Shown here: piece after piece, positions 1 to 56,046 of the stretch
Position numbering within the stretch: the stretch's first letter is position 1
Layout: every line of letters starts with the position of its first letter
Assembly (NCBI RefSeq): GCF_010093535.1
Contig: NW_022985168.1
Location: forward strand, 1,328,537 to 1,392,536
DNA from: Lindgomyces ingoldianus
Taxonomy: Eukaryota > Ascomycota > Dothideomycetes > Pleosporales > Lindgomycetaceae
Length of the DNA stretch: 64,000 nt
Direction: 5' to 3'
Program-made: the position numbers and the translations under genes
The notes under the pieces: generated by a model
Databases searched by the model: none
What the model saw: the letters and a program-made list of their open reading frames with translations, nothing else
Told to the model about the DNA's origin: nothing

Positions 1-1203
1 CGGAGAGACCTTGACGTACGGCGCGATTTCTTCGCGGATGTCGGAGAGGATGGCAGAGTTGCTGTAGATGTGCAGGAGCATCCAGAAGACGTTCTTGTTT
101 GAGTTTACGTTCACACCCCAGATAACCGAAACATCGTTGGTCTTTTGCAAGGTAGGAGAAGCGTTGTTGTCAACCCAAACTTTCACACGCTGTTGCATGA
201 TATCCGAAATATCGTCGAGCTGGCCATTGTATCTTGGTCCAGGGTCTTCTCCACGCTGCATGGCTGCCACAGCATTGTGCCATTCTTCCATAGCGACGGT
301 GAGACGGTTGCGGCAGCCGACGGCCTTGCGACCAGCAGCAGTGAAATTTTGGACAAGCGGGGCAACAAGGTGGTGGACACCCTCATCAAAGTCCCAAAGA
401 TCATATTGGAGATTAGGATTGTTCTTGATCAAGCCCTTGCCCCAGAGCATGTCGATGACAACCTGACCCATATAGTTGACAACCAGTCCGTAGAAGTTTG
501 CGTCGAAGGTACCATCACTGTTGAAGTTTACTTTGGCAGCTTCTTCCCATTGCTTAAGAGGCTTGCCCTCGGCGTCAGGAGTGGACCACGGCGCGGAGGT
601 GACGAGACAGGCGGCGTTAATCTCCTGAGCCTTCGCAGTCTTGCTTGTTGCCTCGTTGATGAAGTCCTCCTTCAGCATGAGATTCAGGCCCTGGTGGTTG
701 GCATGGAATGCATGATGCTCATCGCGAGTGGCGTGCTTGTCGGCAAAAGCTGCATTCATGAACCATTCTAGGATCTTCTGCTTGTTTAGGGTGGCCGATT
801 TTTGCGCAAAAATTTGCTGGACGAGGGAGGGCATGTTGATGACATAGTATTTGGAAAGGCCGATGCGGTAAGAGATGATTCCATCTCCACTGGTGTCACT
901 ACGGTATACTCAGTGATGCCCATCCTGTGCTGGATTGGCAAGTACGTACCGGTCACGGGAAAGAGTCCCCTCAATATCCCTCGCAAAAGAGACAGCGGAC
1001 CCTACAAATGGAACCCAATATGGGATGCGATTCGGAGTCTTCGATGCAGCATCTACTTGGTTTATGGCGACGCGGCTTCGAACTTCGGTGATAACGCGAG
1101 TAAGGACGCAAGAAAGAACAAAGAAAGAGAGAATTGAAATTACTGGTGACGTTAAAAGCCCCTGAATATAGGGGATTTCCTGAAAAGAACGGAGGAGACC
1201 CAT
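1..1203 (-). CDS. Cytochrome P450 (CYP7/CYP8-like), C-terminus outside window
   Basis: Two exons are visible: 1203-950 and 898 leftward past the window edge, with an intron at 949-899 (GTACGT...TAG). About 384 residues are present. The N-terminus has a hydrophobic anchor (about residues 15-35), then a PYWVPFVG proline-rich segment typical of microsomal P450s. The I-helix region around residue 345 reads WGVNVNSNKNVFW. This resembles the fungal P450s related to CYP7/CYP8 (prostacyclin-synthase-like), which lack the usual acid-threonine pair. The ExxR and haem-cysteine motifs would be in the missing part. The gene lies on the same strand as, and 1.4 kb from, the thioesterase-like gene of the biosynthetic cluster, so it may supply one oxidation of the fatty side chain; that role is inference. 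The P450 family call is firm, the substrate unknown. Confidence 0.82.
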
Positions 1204-2594: not shown

Positions 2595-3561
2595 TCAGTA
2601 GGTGTACATCGCAGGCCCTGATCTCCCGATGAACGCCCCATGTAGCTGGTCGAGACTCCCGAAGTTTTGCGCCAACTCCAAATGTTTCTGACACTCATTT
2701 TGAACCTCTTCCCATGACCAGTGACAGTCGCGCTCCTTCTTCGCGTTTGCAGTAATGTTCTCAAATCCTTGTGTCTGTTCCGAGGAAGGCTTAGACGGAA
2801 ACAGGCCACACTCTAACATGACAGACTCAGGCGGGCAAGTCACGCGACCTGCTTTGAAGACGTACTTTGTGATAGCGGTAGCGTAGATTCGATCTTGTTG
2901 GTCACCAAATTTCTTTGTGTCTGAGAACGGTGATGCCTTCGCTGCTGGTGGACTAACTAGGAAGCGCGTCGGTTTATTCGAGCCTGATTTTGTGAAGTGA
3001 CTAACGACGTAAATCCATTTCTCATCCCAGCAGAGAACACGCGAGGAGATTTCGTAATGCGCAAAAGGGGGAATGGCCTTCTTGAAAATGCACGAGGTTC
3101 CACCAAGGTTGAACATCTTGGGCTTCAGTGTTTCTTTGCCACGAGCTAGGGGCTGGACGACATCTTTGAAAAGGGCAAGCATAAGTTCGGTGCGGTTGTC
3201 GTCGAGGTCATTGAAAAAAGTGCTGTTGGACTTGTGCAAATTGTAATCAATATCAAGCAGAGGAGTGTACGAGGAAGTGACCACTGGAGCAAACAGAGAC
3301 TCGCCGCCATGCTTCGCGCTCTTTACTGTGAGTTGAGTACGTCGGAAAAGGAGATGCCGTGCAAGCTGTGAGAAGAGTCGTCCCTGTGTTGATAGTTAGT
3401 TCGCAGCAAAATTCCTATTAGGTGGGTCACTTTACGTGCCACATGAAAATAAGGCTTTTGGCGTTACTCAAGAGAACAGCGCCCAATAGACCTGCAACGA
3501 TGAAGATCTGGGCAGGGCTGAGGTGAATTGTGATTCCCGGAGATTGGGAGATGTCCATCAT
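2595..3561 (-). CDS. Membrane-anchored thioesterase-like protein (4HBT superfamily, THEM6/AtnL-like)
   Basis: Exons 3561-3436 and 2595-3383 join across an intron at 3435-3384 (GTAAAG...CAG) in frame, giving 304 residues. ATG 3561 is the first in-frame start I see in this exon; a second ATG follows at once at 3558. Residues about 15-35 form one hydrophobic segment (AGLLGAVLLSNAKSL follows a short polar start). The body matches, by eye, fungal thioesterase-like proteins: LFAPVVTSSYTPLLDIDYNLHKSNST is the hot-dog-fold start, where the helix usually carries the catalytic acid. A relative, AtnL, sits in the aspercryptin cluster, which also has its own FAS pair and aminotransferase. A reasonable role here is hydrolysing the acyl-CoA or acyl-ACP made by the cluster FAS. 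It is transcribed away from the regulator at 5053, sharing an upstream region. Confident in the family, moderate in the role. Confidence 0.8.
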
Positions 3562-5052
3562 TTTAGTTACAATGTCTCGAATCTGAGGTTGGGTTCTGGA
3601 TGGAAAAATAAATATTAAATCAGCAGGAAGGATTTGATAAAACTTTCAAGGAATTGACTTATGGAATCGCCGAGAGAAGTTGGATGTTTACTATATATCC
3701 GCACATGACTTGCGTAAGGTCTCAAATTAGCACCACAGTATGATTTTTTTGGACCTCTGCTGTAGTCAGCGCTGCGATCTGCAGTTGGGCAGAGCGGCTG
3801 GGCTAAGCGGCACCAGCAATACCTGAGAAATGCCTAGGCCCTGAGGTTGTCACGTCGAAGGCATTATTTCAAACACAAGCGTCCGGGGCGCAGTGGCGGG
3901 CCTTGGGGTCCGCTTGGCCATCACTGGAGATGCGAAGTGTGGCGAGTATCAAAACCAAGGGCGGGAAGGTGCTGGCGGGAGGAGAAGCGTACGAGGGCCC
4001 TACGGAGTTCGGGAATCACACACAGGAAGAAGGCGCCGGCAAGATGGTGCGTTTTGGAGTACGGATCGAAAATGTTGGATGCCGAGTAGAAACCCGCGGT
4101 GAAGTGTTAGCTGGCACCAACAGCTGTTGGGTGCTGAAGCCGCCCTGGTCCAAGCGCAGATCCGGAGCGCGCTAACCAGGCCAGCACGCCCGCGCCACAT
4201 GGCCGGAAACAGATCTTCCTAACTTACCGCTTCGGGCCTGATCAACGTTGCCGAGACCGCGCTTAGCCCCTGGCCCCCCTGTCTCAGCCTCCCAAATCCC
4301 CCGCCCTCTTCGCAATCCCAGGAGGGTGGCTGACGTGGACCATGCACTGCGCACGTCGTGACCTCGGACATGTCCATAGTGGATTTCCTTTTTTGCCATT
4401 TCACAACACTGACTAACCCCCTCAGTTCGAGGCGGAGCGTGCAGTACGCCAACCACAGCAATTGCTCTCCTTGCTGTTCTACGGTGAAAGGTTGAATCCT
4501 TGAATGATGACAAAGGCGCCTCCGAAGGCTACTTTCAGCCGTCAGTGCACCACTGCCTCCATCAAAACTTAGTAGCCGGTGTCAAAATAACCTCATCGCG
4601 ATTCTTTGTTCTGCCCCGAATCCTGCGAGACGATCTGGGGATCTCTCTCGGGGACTTGGTCGGTCTTTGGGAAATTGACATCGTGTCAGAATAAGCCTCC
4701 CATTTGGCGGGAACGGCGCAGCGGAGCCTCATATTGTTATACTCCTCGAGTCCTCAAAGCGTTTCAGGTTCTTGGATATTGGGGCGGTACTCAAACTTCC
4801 CACTTTCCTTCAATCATCGTGTGGTATCCCTTATTTCTATTTTTGACACTAGCAAGGATAGCACTGGTCTCTTTCCCCACGTTTCTTCTCTGTACAAGAC
4901 AGCGTTTAGAATCTGAACCGCTGTCTCTTAGGCTACACACCTCAGAAAATTGAGTCGGTGCCCACTTTTCAGACCCACGAAGCATCGCATAAGATCAGCA
5001 ACAATCATCAGCTTCACCACTCTTTCGAAGCTACCACAGCACACACTTCGCA
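3562..5052. promoter_or_regulatory. Divergent upstream region of thioesterase-like gene and regulator
   Basis: About 1.5 kb separates two divergent genes and must contain both promoters. The stretch 3850-4300 is GC-rich and open in several frames at once, but none of the translations is recognisable and no splice pattern makes a domain. A search of the region upstream of 5053 in the forward frames shows no zinc-cluster exon that could belong to the regulator. Confidence 0.5.
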
Positions 5053-6943
5053 ATGGATGCAGACAGGCGACTCATCAAGGCTCTGGAGGCAGCCAACGAT
5101 GCTCTTCAGCACTTGTCCATGTCGCCAGACTTTGGATGCCTTGACTGCACACACATCGACCGCTTACTGGCGAGGGTGGTTGACCTGCCGACCGAAGGAA
5201 ACCAGAGGAACAGCCGACGGAATCTCTTGGTAATACGGCAATGGATGATCACAGAAGGGCCAGGCGTTGTCTTACTCGAGGTGTTGGGACAACTGTACTG
5301 GAGGTTGGGCGAGCTCAACGGAAAGCAGTTCGAGAAGTTCAAAACAACGATGCAGCAGCAGGGCCCCTATCTCGCTCTGATCCAGGACTCAAACGCGGTG
5401 ACGCTTGTCGTACAACGGATTCGACATATCCAAAAGTCAAAGGCGGATGCCTGCCAGGACTTCTTGTGCGAGCTCTCCGACATTACCGGCATGAAAGGTG
5501 AGTTGCCATGGCTAAGTGGCTGGAAAAGATACTGATCTTTCTAGTGGATTCTCCCATGGCCGACATGGACATGCTGCGCGCTTCATCGAGCAGCCCCTTT
5601 ACCCCACAGTCAGTGAATTCACTTGACAGTGCCTCCTCTCAAGAGTCTTGGCTTGGTCTGATCAAGTATGTTCCAAATAGTAGCCTTTGGGGTGGAGATA
5701 TGGAGCAACTTTTGATTGATTTTTGTATGTGCGCTGGCGCCAGAATTTGACCACCTCAGCTAATGACTTGTAGATATCAACGGAATCTGCCCAGGACGGA
5801 CGCCAATGACAGGTGCTAATACTTACCTATCACTCCTGAGAGTTGCAGATACCTGCCAAAGTACTCGATATGCTCTTCTTAGCCTGAGCGCCTCTTACAT
5901 CGGTGAATACCTCCCTTCGGAGAAGGAAAAATATCACCGAGCCGATCTTTTTTATTCAACGCAAGCATTACAAGCTCTTGCGCGGCAGATTAGCAATGGC
6001 GAAGCGTATGATGCCGCTCTAGCAACGAGCATGCTTTTGATGCATCACGATGCGGTGAACAACACCGACGAATTGAGCCTGTGCTGGTCAATTCACGCCA
6101 ACGTATTTGACACAATACCTGCGGCCTACTTTGATCACCATGCAGATCCTGCGCTCTTCATCCGACACCAATTGGTTCTTGCACGAACTGCACAGACGTC
6201 CTTCAAACTTCAGAACACTCAGCTTCACTCATTAGAAACGAAGAACTGGTATGAAGGTACTCCTCCAGGCGAAGCACAGCGCATTTGCGGCATCCTCGGG
6301 GTATCGCCACAACTTCTGTTTCTTATCTCATCTGTCACCTCGCTTGCATCCGACGCCAAGAGCCCCATGAAGTCGCACAAGCACGTGTATGCACAACTTC
6401 AAGAGTCGCAATTAGCAAATCTTCGTCAATGGACGAGTGAAATTCAGGGTGAGCCACAAGAAGTTGTGCTCGCTACTGCAGAAGCTTATCGTCTTGCTGC
6501 GTTGATTTACTTGCGATGCCGCCTCTATGGGTACGCTCCCTGTCAGCCATATTAGTTTGAGGCTTTTACTGATGAAAAAACTCAGCTATACGCGTTTTAA
6601 TCCCGCAGTCATGGAGCTCAATGACGCTCTCTCTACCGTTCTCCTCTCGCTTCCCGTGAAGGGCCATCTTTATACTGCCATTTACCCAACCTGGCCTCTC
6701 TTCATTGCGGCTGTGACAGCAAGTGCCGACAAGCGCGATTGTCTCTACCAGCGCGTAGTTCCAATCACGGAAGGCGACAAGAACACCCTTCCTGCAGTTC
6801 TCCAGCGCGTTTCGGGGCTTCGAATCTGGCTTGCAAATCAAGATCCAACTCAACAACTCCGAGACGGCTGGTGGGATGAGATGCTGGAGCCCAGCAGCAG
6901 CACCAAGGCCGTCTCTGCAAACCGTCTCTTATGTCTGGGTTAA
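5053..6943 (+). CDS. Fungal-specific transcription factor-domain protein lacking a zinc cluster
   Basis: Four exons (5053-5497, 5545-5724, 5774-6530, 6586-6943) join in frame through introns with GTGAGT, GTATGT and GTACGC donors, giving 579 residues. The C-terminal two thirds, especially the helices near STRYALLSLSASYIGEYLP and YSTQALQALARQI, look like the Fungal_trans_2 regulatory domain of Zn2Cys6 regulators. The N-terminus has no CX2CX6C pattern; only an isolated CLDC is present. It has no basic zipper or ankyrin repeats either, so it is unlike the ToxE/Aps2-type regulators of HC-toxin and apicidin clusters. It is probably the cluster regulator, acting by protein contacts or through an undetected DNA-binding segment; that is inference. 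Splice sites are firm; the start codon is the first in the frame and could be wrong. Confidence 0.75.
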
Positions 6944-8467: not shown

Positions 8468-8472
8468 GTAAG

Positions 8473-8521
8473 TGTCCGTACGCAGCAGCAGCGTTACGGT
8501 CTGGATACTAGTTATCGCGCG
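8473..8521 (+). repeat. Left terminal inverted repeat of the MITE
   Basis: 49 bases, identical to the reverse complement of 9044-9092; identity stops at 8522. Preceded by the putative target duplication GTAAG. Confidence 0.9.
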
Positions 8522-9043
8522 GAGTTGTTGATTGCTGGTGGGATTCTATTGTGGTAGTATAGTCGATCGCTTTTACAGTGGATCGCGCGGGTACTGCTGT
8601 TGTTGTCTAGCTGCTAGTTCGTGCAGCTTTGTTGTTTGTTTTAGTGTGCGTCTCGCACTATCTCCTCCTTACTTCGTGCGGTAGCAGGGCTTGCCGTACG
8701 ATGCAAAGAATTAATCTGCTATCCCTAAGGATAGGTAACAAAACAAAGTACCTCACAGGGCGTGGGTACTCCGTCGTCACTCTTGTTAATTTGCAGTTAA
8801 TCAAATCAACCACTAATTAGTGTTGAATGGGCTCTTTCAGCTAGCTGCTTATGGTAAAAGCACTTAAGTAGCAAGAGTAAGAGTAGTGTACAGTGTGCAC
8901 AGCGTACGGAGTAGGTAAGGTGGGCAACAGATTTCTGGTCATTGCTTGGCTTGCTTGCGTACGGATGAAAAGGAGAATATCTACATGTTCGCGCACGGAG
9001 GTTCGCGCACGAGCATCACGTGACATAGCTACGTGATCCTTCT

Positions 9044-9092: not shown

Positions 9093-9097
9093 GTAAG

Positions 9098-18700: not shown

Positions 18701-18971
18701 ACAGCTCAGAGGACATAGTGGTCGACGCATCTTCGCGGCTGGCAAGAAACCTCAGGAACTGCACCAGGAGTTGCAAGTGAGATGACGGCTCCTGAAACTT
18801 CTTGTCTGTGTAACACGTGAGAAAGTCATTTCGCCTGCGGCAGGCAAATAGCCTCAGGTGTTCAGGCACGGGTAGCTGGAAGTTTACACTAGCATAAGTG
18901 CACTCGACGACATACTCGGCCTCCTTGTTGTCGGCGGGCAGGCGTGGTGACGCGAAGCCGAGAGCCTCCAT
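12760..18971 (-). CDS. Fatty acid synthase subunit beta (TOXC-like, cluster-dedicated)
   Basis: Exons 18971-13817 and 13763-12760 join across a 53-nt intron (13816-13764), giving 2,052 residues, the usual full length. Domain order is that of fungal FAS beta. The acetyltransferase is at about 150-530, with the active Ser279 in GHSQG. The FMN enoyl reductase is at about 570-1050 (PLMVAGMTPTTV). The dehydratase is at about 1200-1650, with a hot-dog motif NPIHVSSAF (His1579) and GPITHGMHS. The malonyl/palmitoyl transferase follows TGQGSQ to the end, with Ser1824 in GHSLGEY. All catalytic residues I can place are present, so it should be active. With the alpha subunit encoded 1.6 kb upstream it would form an alpha6beta6 cytosolic complex. 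Primary-metabolism FAS genes in these fungi are often divergent neighbours; here the two lie head to tail next to an aminotransferase, P450 and NRPS, which points to a dedicated medium-chain FAS, as ToxC is for HC-toxin. Confidence 0.93.
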
Positions 18972-43400: not shown

Positions 43401-46400
43401 CGCGAATGGCCGCCCATACTTTGCGTCTCGGTACCTCAACGAAGCCGGTATTGCTAAATTTGGTAGCCATGATCATGTCGAAGTGTCTTTCGATTACCTA
43501 GGTCTCTACCAACAGATGGAGCGCTCTGGTGCTCTCCTGACTCAGGTTCCTGGCTACCAGGCCATCTTTGAGGACGTCGGGAAGGAGGCCCCACGTTTCG
43601 CTCTAGTGGAGATCACTGCAGAGGTACTCCAAGGTCAAATGCAGCTGCTCTTTGTGTTCAACAAGAACATGAAGAACCAGAATTTGATTCAATCTTGGAT
43701 TAAGAACTGCAAGTTATGCCTTGCAAACTGCCTCGACCAGTTGCAGAACCGCCCGCAGGAGCTAACGCTTTCCGATTTCCCGCTGCTGAAGCTGACTTAT
43801 GAAGATCTCAACACCCTCGTTCAAACCAAGCTCCCGGAGATTGGCGTTTCCGACATGCAGCTTGTTGAAAGTGTTTATCCTAGCTCTCCAATGCAACATG
43901 GCTTGTTGATCAGCCAGGTTCGCGCGGAGTCGCAGGGCGCGTATGAATACAATCACACTCTAAAGGTCGAGACAAGAAATCTTTCGAACAGTCTAGATAT
44001 AGGGACTTTGGAAGTGGCTTGGGCTAAGGTTGTGCAGCGCCACACATCTCTGCGAACTGTTTTCGTAGAGAGTGTGAGCCACGCAGGGCTTTATGACCAG
44101 GTTGTGTTCAAAACAATTGATCCCAATATCTATGTCCAGCAATGCAAGGAGGATGAAGTGGATAAAGTCTTCAGCTCCAGGGGGAAGCTCGCATTCTATC
44201 CTGGTGGTGCTCTGCACCGATTCACGATCTGCCCTGTGTCTGCGACCGCTGCTATTTGCAAGCTCGAGATCAACCATGCTATTATCGATGGTTCTTCCAT
44301 TGCTAATCTCATGGGTGATTTCATCATGGCTTACGATGGTCACCTTTCAGACCGCTCCGGCTTTGCCTTCGAAGATTACATCAAGCACGTCCTGGAACGG
44401 CCCGTGAGTATAGCCACCAATTTCTGGAAGGAATACCTTGCGGGTATCAATCCCTGCTTCTTTCCCCTGATGGCCCACTGGGAAGATGCTATTGATCCTC
44501 AGAAGAAACTCGAAACAGTATCAATCGACGTTGGCATGACGTCTACCGACTTAACGAAATTTTGCAATGACAAGAACGTTACGTTGGTCAACATCTTCCA
44601 ATTTGCCTGGGGCTTGGTCCTCAAGCAGTACATAGGATCCGAGGACGTCTGCTTCGGGTACCTCTCTTCAGGTCGTGATGCCCCACTGAGCGGCATTGAG
44701 GAGGGCGTTGGAGCGTTTATTACCATGCTTGTTAGCCGTATGGTTCTAGAGGATTCTGACACTATGTCCTCTGCCCTGGAAAAAGTTGCCGATGACCTGA
44801 CTCGCACCCTTCCTAACCAGCACTGTGGTCTTGCTGAGATTCACCATGCCTTGAAACTGGGCAGCCAACCACTCTTCAACACTATCATCTCTTTCCACAG
44901 AGAGACAGACCACGAGTTGCTCACTGACTCTAGCATCAAAGTGGAAGCCATCAAAGGCTATGATCCTACGGAATACGCTCTATCCCTTGATGTTGGTGTC
45001 ACTGAGAGCAAGATCGAAGTCACAATGCAATTCTGGACTTCCGACTTCACTCTTGCTCAGGCCCAAAACATTGGAGCGACTCTTGCCGAGGCTGTCAGGA
45101 AGACAGTTAATCATTCAGAGAAGAAAATTGGCGATGTCGACCTAGTCAGCGCGTCACACTTGGAGCAGCTTCGTAAGATCACGTCCGTTTATCCTCAGTA
45201 TGTCGAGGAGTGCGTCCATCATGCTATCGAAAGCATGGCCGCGGCGACCCCTGATTCCGAGGCCGTTTGCTCGTACGAAGGCAGCTGGACCTACGAAGAA
45301 CTCAATAACCAAGCAACCCGCCTCGCCCATCACCTGGTCTCTCTTGGTGTAGGCCCAGAAGTCATAGTGCCGTACTGTTTCCAGAAATCCGGTTGGGCCA
45401 TCGTATCGATCCTCGCAATCCTGAAAGCTGGTGCTGCAGGTGTTGCGTTTGATCCTAACCACCCCATTAGTCGCCTTGAAGGCCTTGTTGAACAGACTGG
45501 CTCTACAATCATTTTAGCCGCACCCCAAAATATGCACCTTTTCACAAATACTCCAAATGTCGAGCACGTCGTCGGCATCGACGCGGACTTTGTCTCCAGT
45601 CTGCCAGTCGTTAGCGGTGTACCAAACTCTACAGTCTCGCCTGAGAATTCCTGCTTCATTGTTTTCACGTCCGGAACTACGGGTAAGCCCAAGGGCATAA
45701 TTCTAGAACACAGGAACTTGCGAACATGCTGTACCTCCATGGGGGAAGTTCTCGGATTCGGTCCTAACACCCGCGCCCTTCAGTTCGCTGCATACAACTT
45801 CGACGTTTCCCTCCAGGACATCCTAACCACCTTGCAAATGGGTGGTACCATTTGCGTCATTTCCGACGAAGAGAGAATGAACGACCTCGCTGGTGGTATC
45901 AACCGTTGCAAAGCCACTTGGGCTGATCTTACGGCCACGGTTAGCGGTATGCTGAAGCCCCAGGATGTCCCTACCATGCAGCGACTTAACAACGGTGGTG
46001 AACCGCTGAACCGTGATGTCGTTGAGACTTGGGCCGATCACGTTGAATTTTACAACCTCTACGGGCCCGCTGAGACCACAGTCAACCAAACCGCCAGCGT
46101 CCGGCTTTCCAAGACTTCCCCAGCATCGAACATTGGTCCAGCGTACGGCACGCATGTTTGGATTGTCAACGATCAGGATTCCAACCGTCTCGTGCCAATG
46201 GGTTGTGCTGGCGAAATCTTGATCGAAGGTCCCCTGCTCGCTCGAGGCTACCTGAAGGATCCCGCCAAGACAGCGGCTGCATTCATCGAGAACCCTACCT
46301 GGGTCTCACAGTTTCCTGACCCTAACGCCATCTTACCTCGTCGCTTCTATAAGAGTGGTGATATTGGTTGCCTCAACACCGATGGCAGTATCACCATCGT

Positions 46401-49400
46401 CGGACGTCGCGATGCCCAAGTGAAGATTAACGGCCAACGTGTGGAGCTTGACGAAATCATGTACCAAGCTCAATTGGTTCTTCCCGAGGATTACCAGGCT
46501 GTTATTGATGCTATTTCCGTTGAGGGTAATACTAAGAGCAAGACTATAGTCGCTTTCATCACCAACTCCGAGTTCTCTAAATCGAAGAAGAGCGAAGACC
46601 AGTTGACGTTCGAAATAGGCGATGATTTGAGGCGAATCCTGAAAGACCTCCAGGGTGCTTTGGCTAAAGTGTTGCCCTTTTATATGATTCCATCTCTTTT
46701 TGTCCCCGTGTTTAATATTCCATACACCAACTCTGGCAAGCTCGACCGCCCAAACCTGAGGTCCATTGTAGCTACGTTCTCGAAAGACCAGATCTCCCAC
46801 TATCAGCTCCGTTCTACCTCCCATGATCAGCCCCAAACTCCAATGGAACAGGTTCTCCAGACATTATTCAGCCAAATTCTCAGCATCCAGCCGGAAACAA
46901 TTGGCAGAGATGACAGCTTCTTTGGCCTAGGTGGAGACTCAGTCGGAGCTATGAAAATGGTCTCTGCGGCCCGCAAACGCAACGTTACCATTAAGGTTGC
47001 CGACATCTTCAAATATCCAACCTTGAGCGAGATGGCATTAACTGCCTACACAAGAGACGAAAGCATTGCACATGATCTAGCCGCTTTCAGTCTGATCCCC
47101 TCTGATTCTAGGGACGATGTCATTGCAGAGGCTGCTGCCCAATGCAGCCTCTCTGCGACTGACATTGAAGACATATATCCAACCTCAGCCCTTCAAGAAG
47201 GCATGATGGCCTTGGGGATGAGGAAGAGAGGCGCTTACATTGCACAGAAGGTCTTCCGTCTACCCCAATGCTTCAACATCCCACAATTTCAGTCTGCGTG
47301 GGCCAAGGTCATCGAAGCTGAAGCTATCCTCCGCACTCGTATCGTTTGTTCTGGCTCCGGGAACCTGCAAGTTGTCCACAAGCTTTCGATCAGGTGGCAA
47401 CATGCCATGGACTTAGAGGCCTACCTTACTAAGGACCAAGCTACATCGTTCCAGTACGGCGAACAGCTTATGCGCTTAGCCATAGTCAACGAGGAGTACT
47501 TCGTCTGGACTGCACACCACGCCATTTATGATGGATGGTCCGTCGCCTTACTCTTCGAGAAGGTTGCTCAAGCCTACGAAGCGCAGGATATCACGAGTTC
47601 GACGCCCTACAAGGGCTTCATTGGCCGACTTCAGGATGTGTCTGAGTCTGCTTCCGTCGACTTCTGGACGAAGCAGTTCACTACCCAAGGTAGTTTTCCT
47701 ACTAGTTACCCTGAGGTTGGCCTTGGATATTCAGCAGCTTCCAAGAAGACAATCTCCATCCAGGGGTATGCTCCCACTAATTCCTCGAATATTCTGCCTT
47801 CTACGATTAAGAGAGCTGCCTGGGCGTTGACAATGGCAACGTATGCTGACTCTGAGGACGTTGTGTTCGCCCAGACTCTCTCCGGGCGCAGCCTTGGGCT
47901 TGAAGGAATTGACAGCATGATGGGTCCAACTATCACCACTGTTCCAGTTCGTGTCTTTGCACCCAAATCAGGCATTACTATTCGGAAGTTTCTCGAAAAT
48001 GTTCAGAACCATTCCATTGCGTCCATCGACTACGAGCACTTCGGTCTACAAAATATCCGAGACGTTAGTGCAGAGGCACGTACTACTGTGGACAACATAA
48101 CTAACCTCTTTGTCCTTCAGCCTGCTGACGAGGGCAATGAATCATACTTGAACATGGAGCCAGTTAAGCGAGCAGAGGAAAACTTCGACACTTATCCTTT
48201 AGTTATTCTCTGCAATCTTAGCGGTGATGACGAGTTCAACGTCGAGGCCATGTACGACGAAGATATTATCCCAACGGAACAGATGACCCGCATGCTCCAT
48301 CAATTCGAGCACTTCGTCCGGGAGCTCTCTGGAGACGCCTCTAGGTCAATCGAGCAAATGAGCCTTCTGAATAAGTACGATCTCAAGGATGTCACCACCT
48401 GGAACGCCGAACTCCCTGGCAGCATTGATGCTAGAATTCCCGATCTCGTACTCCAGAACGTTGCTGCTCGCCCTAACGCCGAGGCTATCTCTGCCTGGGA
48501 TGGTAGCGTCACGTACCGGGAGCTCGACTTGCTGACATCCAAGCTTGCAAACCACCTTGTCTCTCTCGGGGTTGGTCCAGAGATCAAGGTCGGTTTGTGC
48601 TTCGACAAGTCGATGTGGAATGTCATAACTATGTTCGCTGTCATGAGAACCGGCGGTGTCTGCGTGCAACTCTTACCTAACTACCCTATGCCTCGTATGC
48701 TTAGCATTCTTGAAGACATTGAAGCGAATGTAGTTATTGTTTCTCCTCAGCATGCTAATCTCTTCAATGGCATAGTTCCGAACGTCATCTCTATTGAGCA
48801 ATCATTCATTGATGCTCTACCATCCAGCTACGAGACCTTCGTTGCCCCTCAGTACGGAACTAAGAACGCTGCTTTCATTGTCTTCACCTCTGGTAGCACT
48901 GGTAAGCCAAAGGGTGTTATCATTGAACACCGTGGATTCTGTACTATGGCACACTACCAGCTCCCGAAGATCCAGCTCGACCCAGATTCACGCGTGCTAC
49001 AGTTTGCAACTCACACGTTCGATATCTGCCTCTTTGAGAGTTTTGCCCCACTCGTCAAGGGTGCATGCGTCTGCGTTCCATCTGAGTACGACAGGATGAA
49101 CAACCTTGTTGAGGCAATCAACACTTTAAAAGTGGACTGGGTCATTATGGTTTCGACTGTTGCAGATACTTTCCACCCTGACCAGGTTCCTGGACTCAAG
49201 TCAATTATTCTCGGTGGTGAGCCGCTCCGCGCCGACATCCACGCCCGATGGGCTTCTCGAGTCAATCTCTTCAACGATTATGGTCCAGCTGAGTGTTCCA
49301 TTTTGGCTGTCATGACTCGATCCTACCTCGACACTCCACCGTCAATGATCGGAAAGAGTCAAGGTGGCCGCGCCTGGGTAGTCGATAAGGCTAATCACAA

Positions 49401-52400
49401 CCGACTGGTCCCTGTCGGTTGCATTGGTGAGCTTCTCATTGAAGGCCCTCTTCTTGCAAGAGGATACCTCAAGAACCCCGAGAAAACAGCCGAGTCGTAC
49501 ATCTACGACCCTACCTGGGTATCCATGATCTCCCCTGTTCCAACGCGACTCTACAAGACCGGAGATCTGGTCCGATATGTCCAGGATGGCAACATGCTCT
49601 GCCTGGGACGCAAGGACACCCAAATCAAAATTCGCGGTTTACGTATCGAGCTTGGTGAGATCGAGCATCATGTCAAGACCAGTTCCTTTGGCGCCCAAAA
49701 GCAGGCGGTTGAGAAAATTCTGCTTGGAGGTGACATTGAGAAGCCCGCTCTCGCAGCTTTCGTTGTACCTCCTGCTGAGGACATTGCTGCTGACTCTGTA
49801 GAGCTTCTAGCTTTGTCAACAACGCTTAACACCAAGTTCGTGAAGCTTAAAGAGCATATCGCCAAGTCTCTCCAGGCTTACATGGTCCCCTCTCTTTACA
49901 TTCCTCTTCGCCGGATTCCCGAGACTCAAACCAACAAGATCGACCGCAATGCCTTGAAGCGCATCGGAGCTTCTTTGTCTGCCGATCAAATCGAAGCTTA
50001 TTCCCTAGGAGGCGAGGAAGACTCGTCTTCGAAGCGTGCTCCCTCCACCACCATGGAGATTGCTCTCCAGTCCCTTTGGGCTGAACTTCTTCGCATCGAA
50101 CCTGCTACCATTGGCGCTGATGACAGCTTCTTCAGCAAGGGTGGTGACTCCATTAAGGCTATGCGACTTACGTCGATGGCTCGCAATGAGGGGATCCAAC
50201 TCATTGTCGCGGATATATTTAAGAACCCTGTTTTATGCGACATGGCTACTGTGGCCGTTTCAGGCACTGCTTCATTTGATGCTCCCATTACGCCATTCTT
50301 TCTGGCTCCATCTGAAGATACTCTTATCGAAGACGCCGCAATTCAATGCGCTGTCTCTAAGGGAAAAATTGAGGATATTTATCCATGCACTCCTCTCCAG
50401 GAAGGTCTCATGGAGCTAGCCACCCAGCAGGATGGTGCTTACACAGCTCAACGAGTGTTCCGTATTCAAGACAGCATCGACATCCAACGCTTCAAGAATG
50501 CCTGGGGCCAGCTTGTTGCTCTCCACCCCATTTTGAGGACTCGCATTGTTCTATCTAAAACCTCAGGTGCAGTGCAAGTGGTTCTTAAGGAGGACATTTC
50601 ATGGCAGTCCGAGACCGGTCTGCCTGAATACCTCGCGAGAGACAAGACAGTTGCGATCAAATACGGCAGCCCTCTTGCTCGCTATGCTTTGGACTCGGAG
50701 CACCGACACTTCATCTGGACTGTTCACCACGCACTGTACGACGGACACAGCGCTAACATCCTCATGGAGCAGCTCGAAGGTCTCTACAATGGTGTTCAAA
50801 TCGATGCCGCTCCCAGCTATAACAGGTTCATCAAGCTAATCACCGAAGTTGACGCTGAAGAATCCAAGGGTTTCTGGAAGAACCAGCTCGGCCAGGGGGG
50901 GGCAAACAGCTTCCCTGCTCTTCCTTCGGCCACTTACAAGCCATCTCCCGATTCCGAAGTCACACGAACTATTGAGATCGCCCGCGATGCTAGCCAAGGC
51001 TTCATGCTCTCGACAATTCTTCGCGCCGCATGGGCTATTGTGACAAGCCGCTATATGGGATCTGAAGATATTGCATTTGCCGCCACTAACTCGGGACGTA
51101 ATGCACCTGTTCAAGACATAGGGAGCATTGTCGGACCTACCATAACCACCGTGCCTATCCAACTCCAAATCAACGCGACCTCTACCATCCCGGAATTCCT
51201 CTCCACAGTCCAGCAGCAGTCCACCAAGATGATTCCTTTCGAACACGCTGGTATCCAGAACATCTACTCCATGACCGGACTAAAGCAAAACCTGAAGAAC
51301 CTATTCGTCATTCAGCAGCCTCTTAGCGACATCCAACAGAGGCCCATGCTTGAGGAGGTTCTCGACAAGGAACTTCTCCGTGGCTTCCACATTTATGCCG
51401 CCGTTGTGGAATGCATGGTCCTGAGCGAGAACAAGATCGATATCGAGCTTCAATTCGATCACAAGGCTCTCCCAGAAGCGTCCGCTCGCATCGTTCTGGA
51501 CCAGTTTGAGCACGTTGTCCACCAGTTGGTCAACGCACCGCCATCCGCTTCGCTCAAGGATATTGGTTATGTAACCCCTGCCCATGTCCAGCAAATGGTT
51601 GAGTGGAACAACCGGGTCGACATACAACCCGTTGAAGACTGCGTGCACAATATCTTCCGGCAGCAAGTCAAGCTCTGCCCTGATGCCCACGCTGTGACTT
51701 CCTGGGATGGCTCACTTACCTACAGGCAGCTTGATCAACTCACCGACAAGCTAGCTTCATTCCTCGTTGAGAAGGGAGTTGAGCCTGAATATCTCGTCCC
51801 AATGTGCTTCGACAAATCCATGTTCACGATTGTCGCAATGATGGCTACACTCAAGGCGGGAGGTGCTTGCGTCCATCTCGGCAGAAATTCTCCAATTGCC
51901 CGCATGAGCGAGATCATTGAACAGACCGGTGCCAGCATCGTCCTTACTGACAACATCCATGCCTCCAAGTTCGATGGAGTTAGTGAGGCAATTGTCATCG
52001 ACCAGCCTCTCCTAGATTCCTTCACTTCGTCTACCGCACTTCCTGAGGTTTCTCCATCCAACCCTGCCTTCGTGTTGTTCACTTCTGGTAGCACAGGTAA
52101 ACCGAAGGGTGTGGTGGTTGAGCATGGCTCTCTCTGCACCAGCTCTAGGGCTCACGGAACGAACCGTAAGATCGGCCCCCATACCCGGCTTTTACAGTTT
52201 GCAGCTTATACTTTCGATGTGTCTGTCGCTGATATCTTCACCACCCTCCAGCGCGGAGGATGCATCTGCGTTCCATCGGAGGATGAGCGCATCAACGATC
52301 TAGCTGGCGCGATCAACAGGATGAATTGCAACTATGGATTCTTGACACCGACCGTCGCTGGCATGCTCGACCCCAAGACTGTGCCTGGCCTCAAAAGGCT

Positions 52401-55400
52401 CATCCTCGGTGGAGAGTTGCTTACTCAGGACAACGTTCAGCGATGGGCTCCCATGGTGGATCTCATCATTAGTTACGGAATGACTGAGTGCAGTATTCAT
52501 TGCGTGGACGCTGTTCCTCTTACCCTTGAGAGCGACCCCGCCAATCTTGGTCGGCCCTCTGGATGCCACATGTGGATCGTCGACGCCGAGGATCACAACA
52601 AGCTCGCACCAATTGGCGCTGTCGGCGAGCTTGTGATTGAAGGAAGAATGGTGTCTCGCGGATACCTGAACGACAAGGCCAAAACCGACGCCGCCTTTAT
52701 CCTAGACCCCCTCTGGGCTCAAGGATCCGGAAAGACTCGTCGTATGTATAAAACCGGCGATCTCTGCAGATACAGCTCTGAGGGAGAAATTTGTTATGTC
52801 AGCAGGAAGGACTTCCAAGTCAAGCACCACGGCCAACGTATCGAGCTTAGCGAAATTGAGCACCACCTTGTCGCCGACTCACGAGTCAAGCATGCCGTTG
52901 TTCTTCTACCTAAGACTGGATACCTACAGAAGAGGCTGATTGCTGTACTGTCTTTGGAGTCTCTGGCACTGCCTCTTACCCCAGAAACTCAACTCGCATT
53001 GGTTTCCGGCCTCGACAAGGGCATGGCGGATGTCCAGGTCTCCGGTGTACGCAACCATCTCGCAACGAAGGTTCCTGACTATATGGTGCCCGCGGTGTGG
53101 GTTATCACCCGCGCGCTTCCGTTGACACCAAACAACAAGATGGATAGGGTTACAACGACGAAATGGCTTACAGAGATAGATGAGCGTGTTTACGAATCGA
53201 TTGTTGGAGGAGATGAGGAGGAGGATGGCGCACCAGCAACCGCCCAGCAGAAGCGTCTTCACGACATTCTCGCAGGTGTACTTGGCCTGCCAAGTATTAA
53301 TATGAACCGATCGTTTCTCGACCTCGGTGGGGATTCGATCACGGCTATGCAGCTGCGGGCCAAGGGCCAGGCTGCGGGTATTTCCCTCACCGTTCGCGAC
53401 ATTTTGACTTGCGAGAGCATCTCGCATTTGGTGGTTGAGGCAAGTTTCCTTTCAGAAGACGGAGTTGGGTTTGAAGAAGTTGTTAACCAGGCCTTCCCAT
53501 TAACCGCTTGGCAACAAGCTTGCATCGACGCTCAGACGGAAAGCCAGACGCTCTTGCTTCGATTGGCCTCATCGACAACCGTGCCTAAGATTGTCCGAGC
53601 TATCGAGGCTCTCGTACAGCAACACTCTATGCTTCGTGCTCGCTTCGCACTCGATGCTGAGGGGCATTGGAGCCAGACTATCACTAAGGAGCTTGCGACA
53701 TCCTACAAGTTCGAGGCGCATGCTATTGCTACTAGTGCCGATGTCAAACCTTTCTTATCCACCATTGGATTGGAATTGGATATTGAAAATGGGCCATTGT
53801 TCTCTGCTCGCCTTTTTGACCTCACAGAAGAATCCAACCAGCAAACCATAGCTATCACGGTCCATCCTTTGATTGCCGATACTACTTCCATAAGGATCAT
53901 TGCTCAAGATCTCCGAGAGATGATCCAAGGAAACATGATTTCCTCGAAGAAGACTCTTTCCTTCCAATCCAGGCTTTCTCGCGATCACACCGTGCCTATC
54001 CAGGAGACCCCAACGGTCGACCTTACTGCTTGGGGTATCAACAAGGCTGTCCTGACTACCAATATGGTTGAGAGATCATTTACTATTCCTTCTGGCGTTA
54101 CTTCGTCGCTCTTGGGCTCGAGCAATAACGCGCTCTCGACGGAACCCACCGACATCTTAGTCGCTATTCTGGCTAAGGGATGGAATACTGTCTTCGGACG
54201 TCCGTCGTCCATCGCCATCAAGGAGGAATCTCGCACCTTCAGGACCGTTGGTCAATTCAACCGTATTCGCCAATTACCCAAGACCGCCAGCCAGGATTTC
54301 ATCCAGCTTCTGAGTGAAGTCAAGGACAGCCGCGCTCAAAATGAAATGTGCTTGTCTTTAACACAGCCACTTCCCGCCGCTGTTGAGATGCTGGTTGAGT
54401 CCATTGACTACACCACCTTTGGCAACGAGGAAGCACTTCAATGCACCAAATCCATCGTTCCTCAAGCCATCGTCACCGTTTCAGCCATTGTGGTCAACGG
54501 CGAGATCACTCTCAGATTCACTCACAGCAGCGAAATCGCATACCAAGTTTCCTTCGCCTCTTTCATCAACGTCGTGAAACAACTCATCCCGACCGTCTCG
54601 GCGACATTGGCGAATATGGCGCGCAAGGCTACACTAAGTGACTTTCCTCTTTTGAAATTGGAATACGCACAACTTTCTTCCCTCGAAAAGGTTCTTTCTA
54701 ATATCAACGTTCCATTAGCGAATGTTAATGCAATTGTCCCATGCACGCCGCTCCAGCAACGCATGTTAAACAGCCAGAAGGTAATTCCAGGGTCCTACGA
54801 GTCTGATACCGCGCATAAGATCACTACAGGTGGTACACCCTCTGTCGACATTACTCGTCTGCAATATGCCTGGAAAGCCGTGGTCGCGCGTCATGAGGCT
54901 CTCCGCACGATCTTCATCCCTAGCTTCAGCCACAATGCGCCGATGGAGCGACTCCAACTGGTACTGAAGGAATACGTCCCTATGGTCGACGTGATTCAGT
55001 GCGATGAGAACAACATAACCCGCATCATCGAAAGCCACCATACCGTTGACCACACAAGCTACAGGCCGCACGTTGGATTCACTGTCTTCCAAACCGAATC
55101 TTCGATTTACTGCAAGCTTGAGATCAGCCACGCGCTGCAAGATGGCATGTCCACACGGATTATCTACCAAGACCTCGTGCTTGCATACCAGGACCTTCTT
55201 CCAGAAGGCGTCGCTCCAGGATTCAAGGAATACGTCAAGTGGCTCGCTGAGCAAGATCTGCAGCCTTCGAATGACTTCTGGACGGGATACATTGCGGATA
55301 TCGAGGGCTGTCAGATTCCTCGCGCCAATACTGAGCCAGACACCGAGAAGGGCGAAAACGTCCTTGTGCCAATCACCCTAGATGTCACCGCCCAGTCTAT

Positions 55401-56046
55401 CGCCCAGCTCTGCCGCACACACAAAATTACATCGGCGACGCTCTTCCAAGCCGCGTGGACGCTTGTCCTACGCGCCTTTACTGGCAAGGATGACGTGCTC
55501 TTCGGATACATCACTGCAAACCGCGAACTTGATATCGCGGGCGTGGATGAACTTGTTGGGCCGATGATCAACATGCTTGCGTGTCGTCTTGAGATTTCAG
55601 AAAACGGGTCCGGATTGGAGTTGCTGAATAAGACGCACGAAGAGTTCTTGAAGTCCCTGGACCACCAACACGGCTTTGTGGCTGCTGCAAATGCGAAGGA
55701 GGAAGCGGATGGCATGTTGCCGTTCAATTCCGTCCTGTCTATTGAGTACGCAAGTGAGGACTCTGGTAACGGGTATTACTCCGCTGCCGCCCCCGATTCG
55801 GCTGCAGCTTCATCTTCGCTGCTCAACTTCGACACTCTGTACGGCTCGCGTGCGCCAGAGTTCGACGTCGTGCTTGGAGTATTGTTAGGGGAGACGAGTT
55901 TGGAAGTCCAGCTTGGGTATTGGAACGGGATCATGGAGGAGGGGATGATGAAGAAGATTGCGGGAATGTATAAGGGGATTGTGGAGGAGTGGGTTAGGGG
56001 TGATGTTGAGGAGAGTGTGAAGGGGTTGGCTGCTTTGAAGTTGTAA
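40444..56046 (+). CDS. Tetramodular nonribosomal peptide synthetase (HTS1/APS1-type), A-T-E-C-A-T-C-A-T-C-A-T-(E)-C
   Basis: A single 15.6-kb exon encodes 5,200 residues. ATG 40501 (residue 20) is an equally good start, since the A domain begins soon after. Module 1: A (about 40-560, Lys550), T (Ser620), E (about 670-1110) with intact HHVMIDLVSWR (His803-804, Asp808) and EGHGRE (935-940), then C with NHAIIDG (His1278). Module 2: A (Lys2099), T (Ser2166), C with HHAIYDG (2358-2364). Module 3: A (Lys3165), T (Ser3236), C with HHALYDG (3428-3434). Module 4: A (Lys4232), T (Ser4298), an E-like domain (about 4340-4740) whose active site reads HPLIADTTS (His4474-Pro4475), so dead, then a terminal C with SHALQDG (His4896). 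There is no thioesterase; fungal terminal C domains release by cyclisation. The number of modules and the lead epimerase match the synthetases of HC-toxin and apicidin. The first residue should be D; one other site probably takes the FAS-derived 2-amino acid. Confidence 0.95.
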   Translation: MPTLTDLVQLLSVPAHITTMGSVTDSTAAVWLWNGNVPSRIEECAHELIHKQAKLRPHALAVDAHDGTWTYAELDEASNRVAHYLVGLGIRPENVVPLCFEKSRWAIVGILGVLKAGAAMVFLDPSHPESRRQHITSEVEAKVIISSPQQAHLYGTNFPPTFILSKDTLESLPHHTSAPKTIVQPSNLLYIIFTSGSTGTPKGCLIEHRAFLSGSLRHAERANIISSSRVLQLASYTFDVSMLEIITSLIHGACICTPDMAMMTNGPAYIINEYKITWTFMTPSLVKLMAPSMVPTLKTLALGGEPLSKIDVENWAGQVQLVNGYGPSECSVAATGNTKMTPETDPANIGYPVGGICWIVDAEDHDILLPPNEVGELLIEGPILARGYLKNKEKTDEVFIERPAWGPTTRAGEDRRFYKTGDLAKFLPDGSIYFIGRKDTQVKLRGLRIELGEIEHHIGVHPQVRHRMVILPKKGLFANRLVTLVSLKDYLVESMEAVESTAYVHEDMYSEEVQGHIHSIREGLKANVPEYMVPETWIVLERFPLLISGKLNRSFISNWVAEADNELYRQVVGLEFEEAPDEEDSGSVEEQLRSIISAVLNLPLMNISLQKSFLSLGGDSITAMQVMARCRGAGLAVSVKDILRSKSITDLSYCIKSASETAYSTEEKFDVAFELSPVQRMYFDIAPPDIDDSRQTRFNQSFFLKVERPVAVSSVARALELVVAQHSMLRVRFIQENGRWMQYIQSQIEDSFSFKVYDINTAQDAYPIMTETQTSLDTQMGPIFAVALFNTASEGQQLFLVAHHVMIDLVSWRVILRDLEEVLTTGLLTGEKPLPFQNWLALQSDQAKVVDVDSVLPYTIPSPDFDYWGMADKPNRMCDTQEATITLDSAQTRELLEGACHVTYNTEPIDILLASLVYSFNQIFSDRPVPALFREGHGREPWDDDMDISGTVGWFTTMYPLYVDMKEAFSMLDVVKRAKDVRHSVPANGRPYFASRYLNEAGIAKFGSHDHVEVSFDYLGLYQQMERSGALLTQVPGYQAIFEDVGKEAPRFALVEITAEVLQGQMQLLFVFNKNMKNQNLIQSWIKNCKLCLANCLDQLQNRPQELTLSDFPLLKLTYEDLNTLVQTKLPEIGVSDMQLVESVYPSSPMQHGLLISQVRAESQGAYEYNHTLKVETRNLSNSLDIGTLEVAWAKVVQRHTSLRTVFVESVSHAGLYDQVVFKTIDPNIYVQQCKEDEVDKVFSSRGKLAFYPGGALHRFTICPVSATAAICKLEINHAIIDGSSIANLMGDFIMAYDGHLSDRSGFAFEDYIKHVLERPVSIATNFWKEYLAGINPCFFPLMAHWEDAIDPQKKLETVSIDVGMTSTDLTKFCNDKNVTLVNIFQFAWGLVLKQYIGSEDVCFGYLSSGRDAPLSGIEEGVGAFITMLVSRMVLEDSDTMSSALEKVADDLTRTLPNQHCGLAEIHHALKLGSQPLFNTIISFHRETDHELLTDSSIKVEAIKGYDPTEYALSLDVGVTESKIEVTMQFWTSDFTLAQAQNIGATLAEAVRKTVNHSEKKIGDVDLVSASHLEQLRKITSVYPQYVEECVHHAIESMAAATPDSEAVCSYEGSWTYEELNNQATRLAHHLVSLGVGPEVIVPYCFQKSGWAIVSILAILKAGAAGVAFDPNHPISRLEGLVEQTGSTIILAAPQNMHLFTNTPNVEHVVGIDADFVSSLPVVSGVPNSTVSPENSCFIVFTSGTTGKPKGIILEHRNLRTCCTSMGEVLGFGPNTRALQFAAYNFDVSLQDILTTLQMGGTICVISDEERMNDLAGGINRCKATWADLTATVSGMLKPQDVPTMQRLNNGGEPLNRDVVETWADHVEFYNLYGPAETTVNQTASVRLSKTSPASNIGPAYGTHVWIVNDQDSNRLVPMGCAGEILIEGPLLARGYLKDPAKTAAAFIENPTWVSQFPDPNAILPRRFYKSGDIGCLNTDGSITIVGRRDAQVKINGQRVELDEIMYQAQLVLPEDYQAVIDAISVEGNTKSKTIVAFITNSEFSKSKKSEDQLTFEIGDDLRRILKDLQGALAKVLPFYMIPSLFVPVFNIPYTNSGKLDRPNLRSIVATFSKDQISHYQLRSTSHDQPQTPMEQVLQTLFSQILSIQPETIGRDDSFFGLGGDSVGAMKMVSAARKRNVTIKVADIFKYPTLSEMALTAYTRDESIAHDLAAFSLIPSDSRDDVIAEAAAQCSLSATDIEDIYPTSALQEGMMALGMRKRGAYIAQKVFRLPQCFNIPQFQSAWAKVIEAEAILRTRIVCSGSGNLQVVHKLSIRWQHAMDLEAYLTKDQATSFQYGEQLMRLAIVNEEYFVWTAHHAIYDGWSVALLFEKVAQAYEAQDITSSTPYKGFIGRLQDVSESASVDFWTKQFTTQGSFPTSYPEVGLGYSAASKKTISIQGYAPTNSSNILPSTIKRAAWALTMATYADSEDVVFAQTLSGRSLGLEGIDSMMGPTITTVPVRVFAPKSGITIRKFLENVQNHSIASIDYEHFGLQNIRDVSAEARTTVDNITNLFVLQPADEGNESYLNMEPVKRAEENFDTYPLVILCNLSGDDEFNVEAMYDEDIIPTEQMTRMLHQFEHFVRELSGDASRSIEQMSLLNKYDLKDVTTWNAELPGSIDARIPDLVLQNVAARPNAEAISAWDGSVTYRELDLLTSKLANHLVSLGVGPEIKVGLCFDKSMWNVITMFAVMRTGGVCVQLLPNYPMPRMLSILEDIEANVVIVSPQHANLFNGIVPNVISIEQSFIDALPSSYETFVAPQYGTKNAAFIVFTSGSTGKPKGVIIEHRGFCTMAHYQLPKIQLDPDSRVLQFATHTFDICLFESFAPLVKGACVCVPSEYDRMNNLVEAINTLKVDWVIMVSTVADTFHPDQVPGLKSIILGGEPLRADIHARWASRVNLFNDYGPAECSILAVMTRSYLDTPPSMIGKSQGGRAWVVDKANHNRLVPVGCIGELLIEGPLLARGYLKNPEKTAESYIYDPTWVSMISPVPTRLYKTGDLVRYVQDGNMLCLGRKDTQIKIRGLRIELGEIEHHVKTSSFGAQKQAVEKILLGGDIEKPALAAFVVPPAEDIAADSVELLALSTTLNTKFVKLKEHIAKSLQAYMVPSLYIPLRRIPETQTNKIDRNALKRIGASLSADQIEAYSLGGEEDSSSKRAPSTTMEIALQSLWAELLRIEPATIGADDSFFSKGGDSIKAMRLTSMARNEGIQLIVADIFKNPVLCDMATVAVSGTASFDAPITPFFLAPSEDTLIEDAAIQCAVSKGKIEDIYPCTPLQEGLMELATQQDGAYTAQRVFRIQDSIDIQRFKNAWGQLVALHPILRTRIVLSKTSGAVQVVLKEDISWQSETGLPEYLARDKTVAIKYGSPLARYALDSEHRHFIWTVHHALYDGHSANILMEQLEGLYNGVQIDAAPSYNRFIKLITEVDAEESKGFWKNQLGQGGANSFPALPSATYKPSPDSEVTRTIEIARDASQGFMLSTILRAAWAIVTSRYMGSEDIAFAATNSGRNAPVQDIGSIVGPTITTVPIQLQINATSTIPEFLSTVQQQSTKMIPFEHAGIQNIYSMTGLKQNLKNLFVIQQPLSDIQQRPMLEEVLDKELLRGFHIYAAVVECMVLSENKIDIELQFDHKALPEASARIVLDQFEHVVHQLVNAPPSASLKDIGYVTPAHVQQMVEWNNRVDIQPVEDCVHNIFRQQVKLCPDAHAVTSWDGSLTYRQLDQLTDKLASFLVEKGVEPEYLVPMCFDKSMFTIVAMMATLKAGGACVHLGRNSPIARMSEIIEQTGASIVLTDNIHASKFDGVSEAIVIDQPLLDSFTSSTALPEVSPSNPAFVLFTSGSTGKPKGVVVEHGSLCTSSRAHGTNRKIGPHTRLLQFAAYTFDVSVADIFTTLQRGGCICVPSEDERINDLAGAINRMNCNYGFLTPTVAGMLDPKTVPGLKRLILGGELLTQDNVQRWAPMVDLIISYGMTECSIHCVDAVPLTLESDPANLGRPSGCHMWIVDAEDHNKLAPIGAVGELVIEGRMVSRGYLNDKAKTDAAFILDPLWAQGSGKTRRMYKTGDLCRYSSEGEICYVSRKDFQVKHHGQRIELSEIEHHLVADSRVKHAVVLLPKTGYLQKRLIAVLSLESLALPLTPETQLALVSGLDKGMADVQVSGVRNHLATKVPDYMVPAVWVITRALPLTPNNKMDRVTTTKWLTEIDERVYESIVGGDEEEDGAPATAQQKRLHDILAGVLGLPSINMNRSFLDLGGDSITAMQLRAKGQAAGISLTVRDILTCESISHLVVEASFLSEDGVGFEEVVNQAFPLTAWQQACIDAQTESQTLLLRLASSTTVPKIVRAIEALVQQHSMLRARFALDAEGHWSQTITKELATSYKFEAHAIATSADVKPFLSTIGLELDIENGPLFSARLFDLTEESNQQTIAITVHPLIADTTSIRIIAQDLREMIQGNMISSKKTLSFQSRLSRDHTVPIQETPTVDLTAWGINKAVLTTNMVERSFTIPSGVTSSLLGSSNNALSTEPTDILVAILAKGWNTVFGRPSSIAIKEESRTFRTVGQFNRIRQLPKTASQDFIQLLSEVKDSRAQNEMCLSLTQPLPAAVEMLVESIDYTTFGNEEALQCTKSIVPQAIVTVSAIVVNGEITLRFTHSSEIAYQVSFASFINVVKQLIPTVSATLANMARKATLSDFPLLKLEYAQLSSLEKVLSNINVPLANVNAIVPCTPLQQRMLNSQKVIPGSYESDTAHKITTGGTPSVDITRLQYAWKAVVARHEALRTIFIPSFSHNAPMERLQLVLKEYVPMVDVIQCDENNITRIIESHHTVDHTSYRPHVGFTVFQTESSIYCKLEISHALQDGMSTRIIYQDLVLAYQDLLPEGVAPGFKEYVKWLAEQDLQPSNDFWTGYIADIEGCQIPRANTEPDTEKGENVLVPITLDVTAQSIAQLCRTHKITSATLFQAAWTLVLRAFTGKDDVLFGYITANRELDIAGVDELVGPMINMLACRLEISENGSGLELLNKTHEEFLKSLDHQHGFVAAANAKEEADGMLPFNSVLSIEYASEDSGNGYYSAAAPDSAAASSSLLNFDTLYGSRAPEFDVVLGVLLGETSLEVQLGYWNGIMEEGMMKKIAGMYKGIVEEWVRGDVEESVKGLAALKL

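Follow-up and report, generated by a model that had tools for sequence, protein, structure and literature searches.

The window, by which we mean the whole 64,000-nucleotide stretch of DNA analysed here, corresponds to C7:1328537-1392536; the genome measures 68.4 Mb and comprises 99 contigs. From its left edge to position 56,046, it carries, in this order, genes for a P450 (-), a 4HBT_2 protein (-), a Fungal_trans_2 regulator (+), a BCAT-type aminotransferase (-), FAS beta (-), FAS alpha (-), another P450 (+), an ABC exporter (+), an RTA1 protein (-), and an NRPS (+) (cf. Table 1). The original prediction had read from this block a FAS pair, a BCAT-type aminotransferase, two P450s, a thioesterase-like protein, a regulator, an exporter, and an NRPS, and Pfam recovers every one of them. 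Downstream (to the right) of the NRPS lie genes for SNZ, an M24 peptidase, and an importin, which look like ordinary genes, and because they flank the locus on that side, the cluster would end on the right near 56.1 kb; its left end lies outside the window. The idea that SNZ might be an extra copy supplying a cofactor was abandoned, since the gene gives a single match in the whole genome.

Neither a racemase nor an MFS gene occurs among the window ORFs scanned with Pfam, and a pattern scan of the window in six frames, which does not reach as far as the cluster's left end, detected no ankyrin, in agreement with the earlier statement that no racemase, ankyrin regulator, or MFS pump was in view. 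When Pfam was applied at E values up to 1 to ten ORFs from the gaps, it returned one weak extension of the regulator and otherwise chance-level matches. NCBIfam models for P450, BCAT, 4HBT, ABC, and FAS, as well as a comparison of the P450 and BCAT proteins with the PDB, pointed to general families only.

Table 1. Features of the window and of two further FAS loci in the same genome (positions are those of the window unless a locus is named)
Feature	Position	Strand	Evidence or content
Second P450, across left window edge	1..1233	-	ORFs 913-1233 and 1-909
4HBT_2 thioesterase-like protein	2595..3395	-	Pfam 1.4e-6
Regulator, Fungal_trans_2 domain, several exons	4993..6940	+	Pfam 6.1e-17 on 5767-6555
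BCAT-type (class IV) aminotransferase	10086..11302	-	Pfam Aminotran_4 1.3e-26, 10086-11132
FAS beta (SAT/AT, ER region, DH, MPT)	12760..18974	-	9 Pfam families on 13803-18974; Acyl_transf_1 on 12760-13788
FAS alpha (ACP, helical domain, KR, KS)	20591..25753	-	Pfam on 20591-25713; KS gate GSGFGG
First P450	26829..28678	+	Pfam 7.7e-58 on main exon 27257-28678; N-terminal exon 26829-27362
ABC exporter, MRP type	30025..34723	+	Pfam ABC_membrane, ABC_tran on 30260-34723; first piece 30025-30279
RTA1-like membrane protein	37618..38899	-	Pfam RTA1 in three ORFs
Tetramodular NRPS	40435..56046	+	Single open frame; 5200 aa from first Met at 40444
A1	40555..42105	+	Code DVLFAGGVAK
E1	42457..43824	+	Intact motifs HHVMIDLVSW, EGHGRE
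A2	45193..46755	+	Code DVQDNGLVNK
A3	48415..49953	+	Code DIFIIGDILK
A4	51628..53151	+	Code DVAFIGSIHK
E2, epimerase relic	53479..54684	+	VHPLIADTTS; EGHGRE absent
Terminal C	54718..56028	+	SHALQDG; proposed ring closure
C10 cluster	C10:228.9-301.3 kb		FAS/BCAT/P450/4HBT/ABC genes and six A domains in a row
C51 third FAS pair	C51:259-373 kb		Alpha and beta ~67 kb apart; large multi-module NRPS

The P450 gene at the left edge was verified by reading across the window border, beyond which ORF 1-909 extends by about 560 bases. The full ORF of 490 aa matches the Pfam p450 family at 2.4e-16 and carries the heme motif FGGGLYKCKGR, which bears out the predicted pair of P450s and disposes of the possibility that there was only one. 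By itself, the in-window ORF 1-909 gave zero Pfam or PDB matches, and its 303-aa product found no further match in the genome (8 candidates scored), while ORF 913-1233 was judged by eye to be the N-terminal exon. As to the regulator, its stretch 6506-6940 has a weak Pfam match (0.0092), the stretch 4993-5532 has none, and a pattern scan found no Zn2Cys6 pattern in the protein. Branched-chain aminotransferase models of NCBIfam score below their cut-off with the aminotransferase, and the top model for the ABC exporter, MRP_assoc_pro, is likewise below its cut-off. Membership of the RTA1-like protein in the cluster is uncertain, and the stretches of C10, C51, and C9 that were compared contain nothing equivalent to its main ORF. 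Its gene lies between those of the exporter and the NRPS and is possibly a self-protection gene.

A second cluster of this kind is present on C10. It comprises an ABC exporter, a 4HBT protein, a P450, a BCAT, FAS alpha, an ankyrin-repeat protein, FAS beta, and six A domains, which span three open frames and were taken as one NRPS. It thus resembles the window in its FAS pair, BCAT, P450, 4HBT, and ABC relatives, but differs from it in having six A domains and an ankyrin-repeat protein. The recurrence there of the aminotransferase, P450, thioesterase-like, and ABC genes upholds the earlier view of the window genes as a FAS-linked set. By eye, the N-terminus of the C10 ankyrin-repeat protein resembles a leucine-zipper end, and this regulator looks more like the ToxE type than that of the window does. 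The C10 accessory proteins are mostly 38-49% identical to those of the window, with some pieces under 32% (tblastn). Three genome matches were found for the 4HBT family, namely the window gene, the one in the C10 cluster (50% over 110 aa), and one on C14 (38%), so that two of the three fall inside the FAS/BCAT clusters. Both exons of the first P450, the heme motif of which is at 28442, match the C10 P450 (358 bits over 469 columns, tblastn); the best single P450 stretch in the genome is on C8. The N-terminal piece of the aminotransferase (11093-11302) also matches the C10 gene, which at 47-55% identity is no closer to the window protein than those on C6 (56%) and C4 (50%). For the main exon of the exporter, the C10 copy reaches 38%, and the best single genome match is on C67, not on C10. 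These better or equal matches of the BCAT, ABC, and P450 genes elsewhere in the genome speak against a special tie between the window and C10.

On C51, a FAS pair and an NRPS are found together, but no BCAT match was found, and none of the A domains is more than 44% identical to A1, in a stretch of which about 266-310 kb is unread and parts are masked; in this, C51 contrasts with C10. The C51 stretch also holds a pyridoxal-dependent decarboxylase. Other large NRPS genes occur on C57 and C14, where several A domains each lie in very long open frames of about 8000 codons.

For each of the two FAS subunits, alpha and beta, the genome contains four loci. The window FAS beta is 76% identical to that of C51, 47% to that of C9, and 39-45% to that of C10, and the window FAS alpha, a short N-terminal exon of which was placed by its match to C51, is 70-85% identical to the C51 copy, both subunits being therefore nearest to C51, not to C10. 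The C9 pair is divergent, and its alpha subunit carries a phosphopantetheinyl transferase (ACPS) domain, for which reason we regard it as the likely primary FAS. In the window and on C10 and C51, by contrast, the open frame of FAS alpha, read in the frame itself, stops soon after the KS and has no ACPS domain. That the window pair might be the only FAS in the genome is thus ruled out by the C9 pair, from which it is distinct, and in line with the original prediction, the sequences argue for a dedicated rather than a primary FAS. Within the GSGxGG motif of the KS, the gate residue is Phe in the window and on C51, Leu on C10, and Ile on C9. The I108F exchange of FabF, which affects the same place, shortens the accepted chain, and because of the Phe, the window FAS may by analogy build a saturated chain of medium length.

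Delineated with HMMs made from its own domains, the NRPS has the order A-T-E / C-A-T / C-A-T / C-A-T / E-relic / C. The tetramodular layout, the E domain after module 1, and the terminal C domain had all been predicted correctly, but a second, decayed E domain (E2) had been overlooked, which separates T4 from the terminal C and occupies residues about 4349-4750. In a tree of C domains, both E regions group with E domains, and the terminal C falls in a clade in which C domains placed after an E predominate. The GGDS motif is kept in all four T domains, and neither a C domain nor an acyl-loading T is found upstream of A1. A fragment that is 90-92% identical to the window A4 and interrupted by in-frame stops lies at C28:383546-385082 and is apparently what is left of a partial, decayed NRPS copy.

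A protein search with the NRPS yielded 982 scored candidates, of which the best 120 were listed, P0001 being the window's own protein. Among the matches listed, there are at least 16 full-length relatives (P0002-P0017) with 68-80% identity. Thirteen of the 16 are named, and they come from Lophiotrema, Zopfia, Aaosphaeria, Amniculicola, Dendryphion, Setomelanomma, Paraphoma, Glonium, Parastagonospora nodorum, a Pleosporales isolate, Polyplosphaeria, Mytilinidion, and Lophium; the genera belong to the Dothideomycetes. Fourteen of the 16 have the same domain string as the window protein, and P0003 and P0016 show one extra fragment. The listed matches further include full-length relatives at 49-55% identity (P0022, P0024, and P0040) and partial ones (P0018, P0034, P0057, and P0080), the remaining proteins being mostly longer synthetases with 33-41% identity. 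HC-toxin or apicidin appears in no displayed name among these best 120 of 982 (names shortened), although HTS1 could rank below the best 120 or fall outside the 982 candidates. P0085 is labelled atnA, but since it parses with five A domains, we gave this label no weight.

The A codes, read with the 1AMU ruler, hardly vary among the 16 close relatives. Thirteen of them share the A1 code unchanged, and the other 3 carry Ile in place of Val; that of A2 is identical in 15 and differs at two positions in P0015; that of A3 is identical in 11 and shows one conservative change in 5; and that of A4 is identical in 15, the A4 of P0016 being split in the parse. To judge from these near-identical codes, the 16 relatives, compared here by their NRPS proteins, probably produce one and the same peptide. 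More distant ones need not: the A2-A4 codes of P0022 (55%) are clearly different, and P0040 (49%) differs in A3 and A4. P0024 (54%), from a lichen (Dirinaria) metagenome, has the same four codes bar Val/Ile exchanges and a decayed E2. When 20 proteins were aligned (the window NRPS, P0002-P0017, P0022, P0024, and P0040), the E1 motif HHxxxDxxSW was present in all 20 and EGHGRE in 19, P0011 being off by one residue, whereas canonical E2 motifs were found in P0040 only. Among the 12 domains for which identity to the window was computed, the lowest value belonged to E2 for 14 of the 16 close relatives and to the terminal C for the remaining 2; across these 16 proteins, E2 is 45-67% identical to the window, and A4 75-88%. 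As E2 is decayed, the fourth residue would stay L.

The central question was which module takes the fatty amino acid. At least 85 places in the genome match A1 (83 of 106 candidates scored), and in that scored set, only the first and sixth A domains of C10 reach 50% identity besides A1 itself. In a tree of 118 A domains picked by hand from 595, partly for A1-like codes, the window A1 falls in a clade with support 1.0 that contains the A1 domains of its relatives, A1 of C10, P0084, P0105, P0065, and P0019, A1 and A6 of P0035, and A6 of P0026. All members are first or last A domains in their proteins, and some inner branches are weak. P0026 has six A domains together with PF07993 and PF01370, likely a terminal reductase. 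It is thus A1, and not A4, that falls into one supported clade with A domains from the second FAS/aminotransferase cluster on C10, which suggests that A1 is likely the domain for a fatty (2-aminoalkanoic) acid. As several genes of C7 and C10 have a common origin, however, the common A1 type is not independent evidence. The fifth A domains of P0041, P0068, and P0107, which belong to a different 7.8-kaa family, also agree with the A1 code in 8 of its 10 positions, and in P0019, P0035, P0065, P0084, and P0105, unlike in the window, a C-like stretch precedes the A1-type first domain. The codes of modules 2-4 match no residue assignment that we trust.

These findings led us to propose, with a probability of roughly one in two, that the product is a cyclic tetrapeptide whose first residue is a 2-aminoalkanoic acid, made by way of the FAS and epimerised. 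We favour the epimerised fatty residue in first place because it is A1, and not A4, that clades with the A domains of the second FAS/aminotransferase cluster. The substrate, chain length, cyclisation, and order of steps that we infer are as follows. The FAS alpha/beta pair would make the acyl chain, and the 4HBT protein and one P450 may release and 2-hydroxylate it, further oxidation giving the 2-oxo acid (no dehydrogenase gene was recognised in the cluster), which the BCAT-type aminotransferase would convert into the 2-amino acid. Module 1 of the NRPS would load this 2-amino fatty acid and E1 would invert it, modules 2-4 would add three more residues, the last remaining L, and the terminal C domain would close the ring. 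The ABC pump might then export the peptide, and the second P450 might tailor the chain or the ring.

By gene content and by the known properties of these systems, the chemistry may be likened to that of HC-toxin and aspercryptin. With the HC-toxin, apicidin, and chlamydocin group, the window shares four modules, an active E after module 1, a terminal C, a FAS, a BCAT, and P450s. In HC-toxin and apicidin, the fatty residue is an L-residue, supplied in HC-toxin by module 4, and module 1 makes D-Pro or D-Pip; members of the family inhibit histone deacetylases (HDAC) by means of an oxidised C8-C10 side chain. The window differs from that group in the E relic before the terminal C, in that the fatty-amino-acid domain looks like A1 rather than A4, and in having a Fungal_trans_2 regulator and an ABC pump instead of the bZIP/ankyrin regulator and MFS transporter. 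It could nevertheless be a true member, in which a later module, module 4 as in HC-toxin, loads a fatty L-2-amino acid and module 1 and E1 provide D-Pro or D-Pip, yielding an HDAC-inhibiting cyclic tetrapeptide with an oxidised side chain. This reading, to which we give a minor but real chance, would account for the four modules, the E after module 1, the terminal C, and the size of the NRPS, HTS1 being about 5.2 kaa long as well; it also agrees with a dedicated FAS pair accompanied by a BCAT, the second P450 could oxidise the chain end, and the decayed E2 would keep residue 4 in the L form. Against it speak the type of A domain held in common with the other FAS/BCAT cluster, which is A1 and not A4; the names of the best 120 of 982 homologues, none of which as displayed mentions HC-toxin or apicidin; the ankyrin protein, which is found in the C10 cluster instead of the window; and the absence of a racemase and an MFS gene among the ORFs scanned. 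Membership of the window cluster in the HDAC-inhibitor family is unproven, and we did not assign it there; an HDAC-inhibiting product is a matter of conjecture.

Aspercryptin, made by the atn genes, has in common with the window a FAS alpha/beta pair, a BCAT, a P450, and ABC export, and the clade of the window A1 takes in the last A domain of P0026, with its six A domains and likely terminal reductase. Aspercryptin ends, however, in a reduced 2-aminododecanoic unit, and its synthetase has six modules without a terminal C. Because the window has four modules and a terminal C, and so differs in module number and release end, we did not file it as an aspercryptin type.

Two further explanations would do without a fatty amino acid in the ring. 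According to the first, the cyclic tetrapeptide made by the NRPS contains ordinary amino acids only, and the FAS and BCAT genes are merely an adjoining second pathway. The window FAS is indeed closest to the C51 copy, the NRPS of which differs, and domains of another NRPS family share 8 of the 10 positions of the A1 code, but C10 unites the same gene types with A1-type domains, and we consider such a chance neighbourhood improbable. According to the second, which we regard as very improbable, the FAS supplies the N-terminal acyl group of a lipopeptide, as a dedicated FAS and a thioesterase-like gene would allow, but the absence of a C domain before A1 makes an N-acyl cap unlikely, an acyl-loading T is lacking there too, and the BCAT would be superfluous.

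Returning to the cyclic tetrapeptide that begins with the epimerised fatty residue, we tentatively extend the proposal, with less confidence than in the product itself, to an old and strongly conserved cyclic lipo-tetrapeptide of the Dothideomycetes, whose register would be opposite to that of HC-toxin and whose E2 would have been lost from an ancestor with two working epimerases, a state kept in P0040. On this extended proposal, it would follow from the near-invariant A codes that many species make the same compound. The pattern D-x-[LM]-F-x-G-G-[VI]-A-K may serve as a candidate signature of synthetases that use FAS-made amino acids, albeit not an exclusive one, as 8 of its 10 positions recur elsewhere. 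The decayed E2 would represent a natural loss of an epimerase that alters the chirality of the product. If the proposal is true, a group of fungi that includes the wheat fungus Parastagonospora nodorum shares a pathway to a fatty cyclic tetrapeptide.
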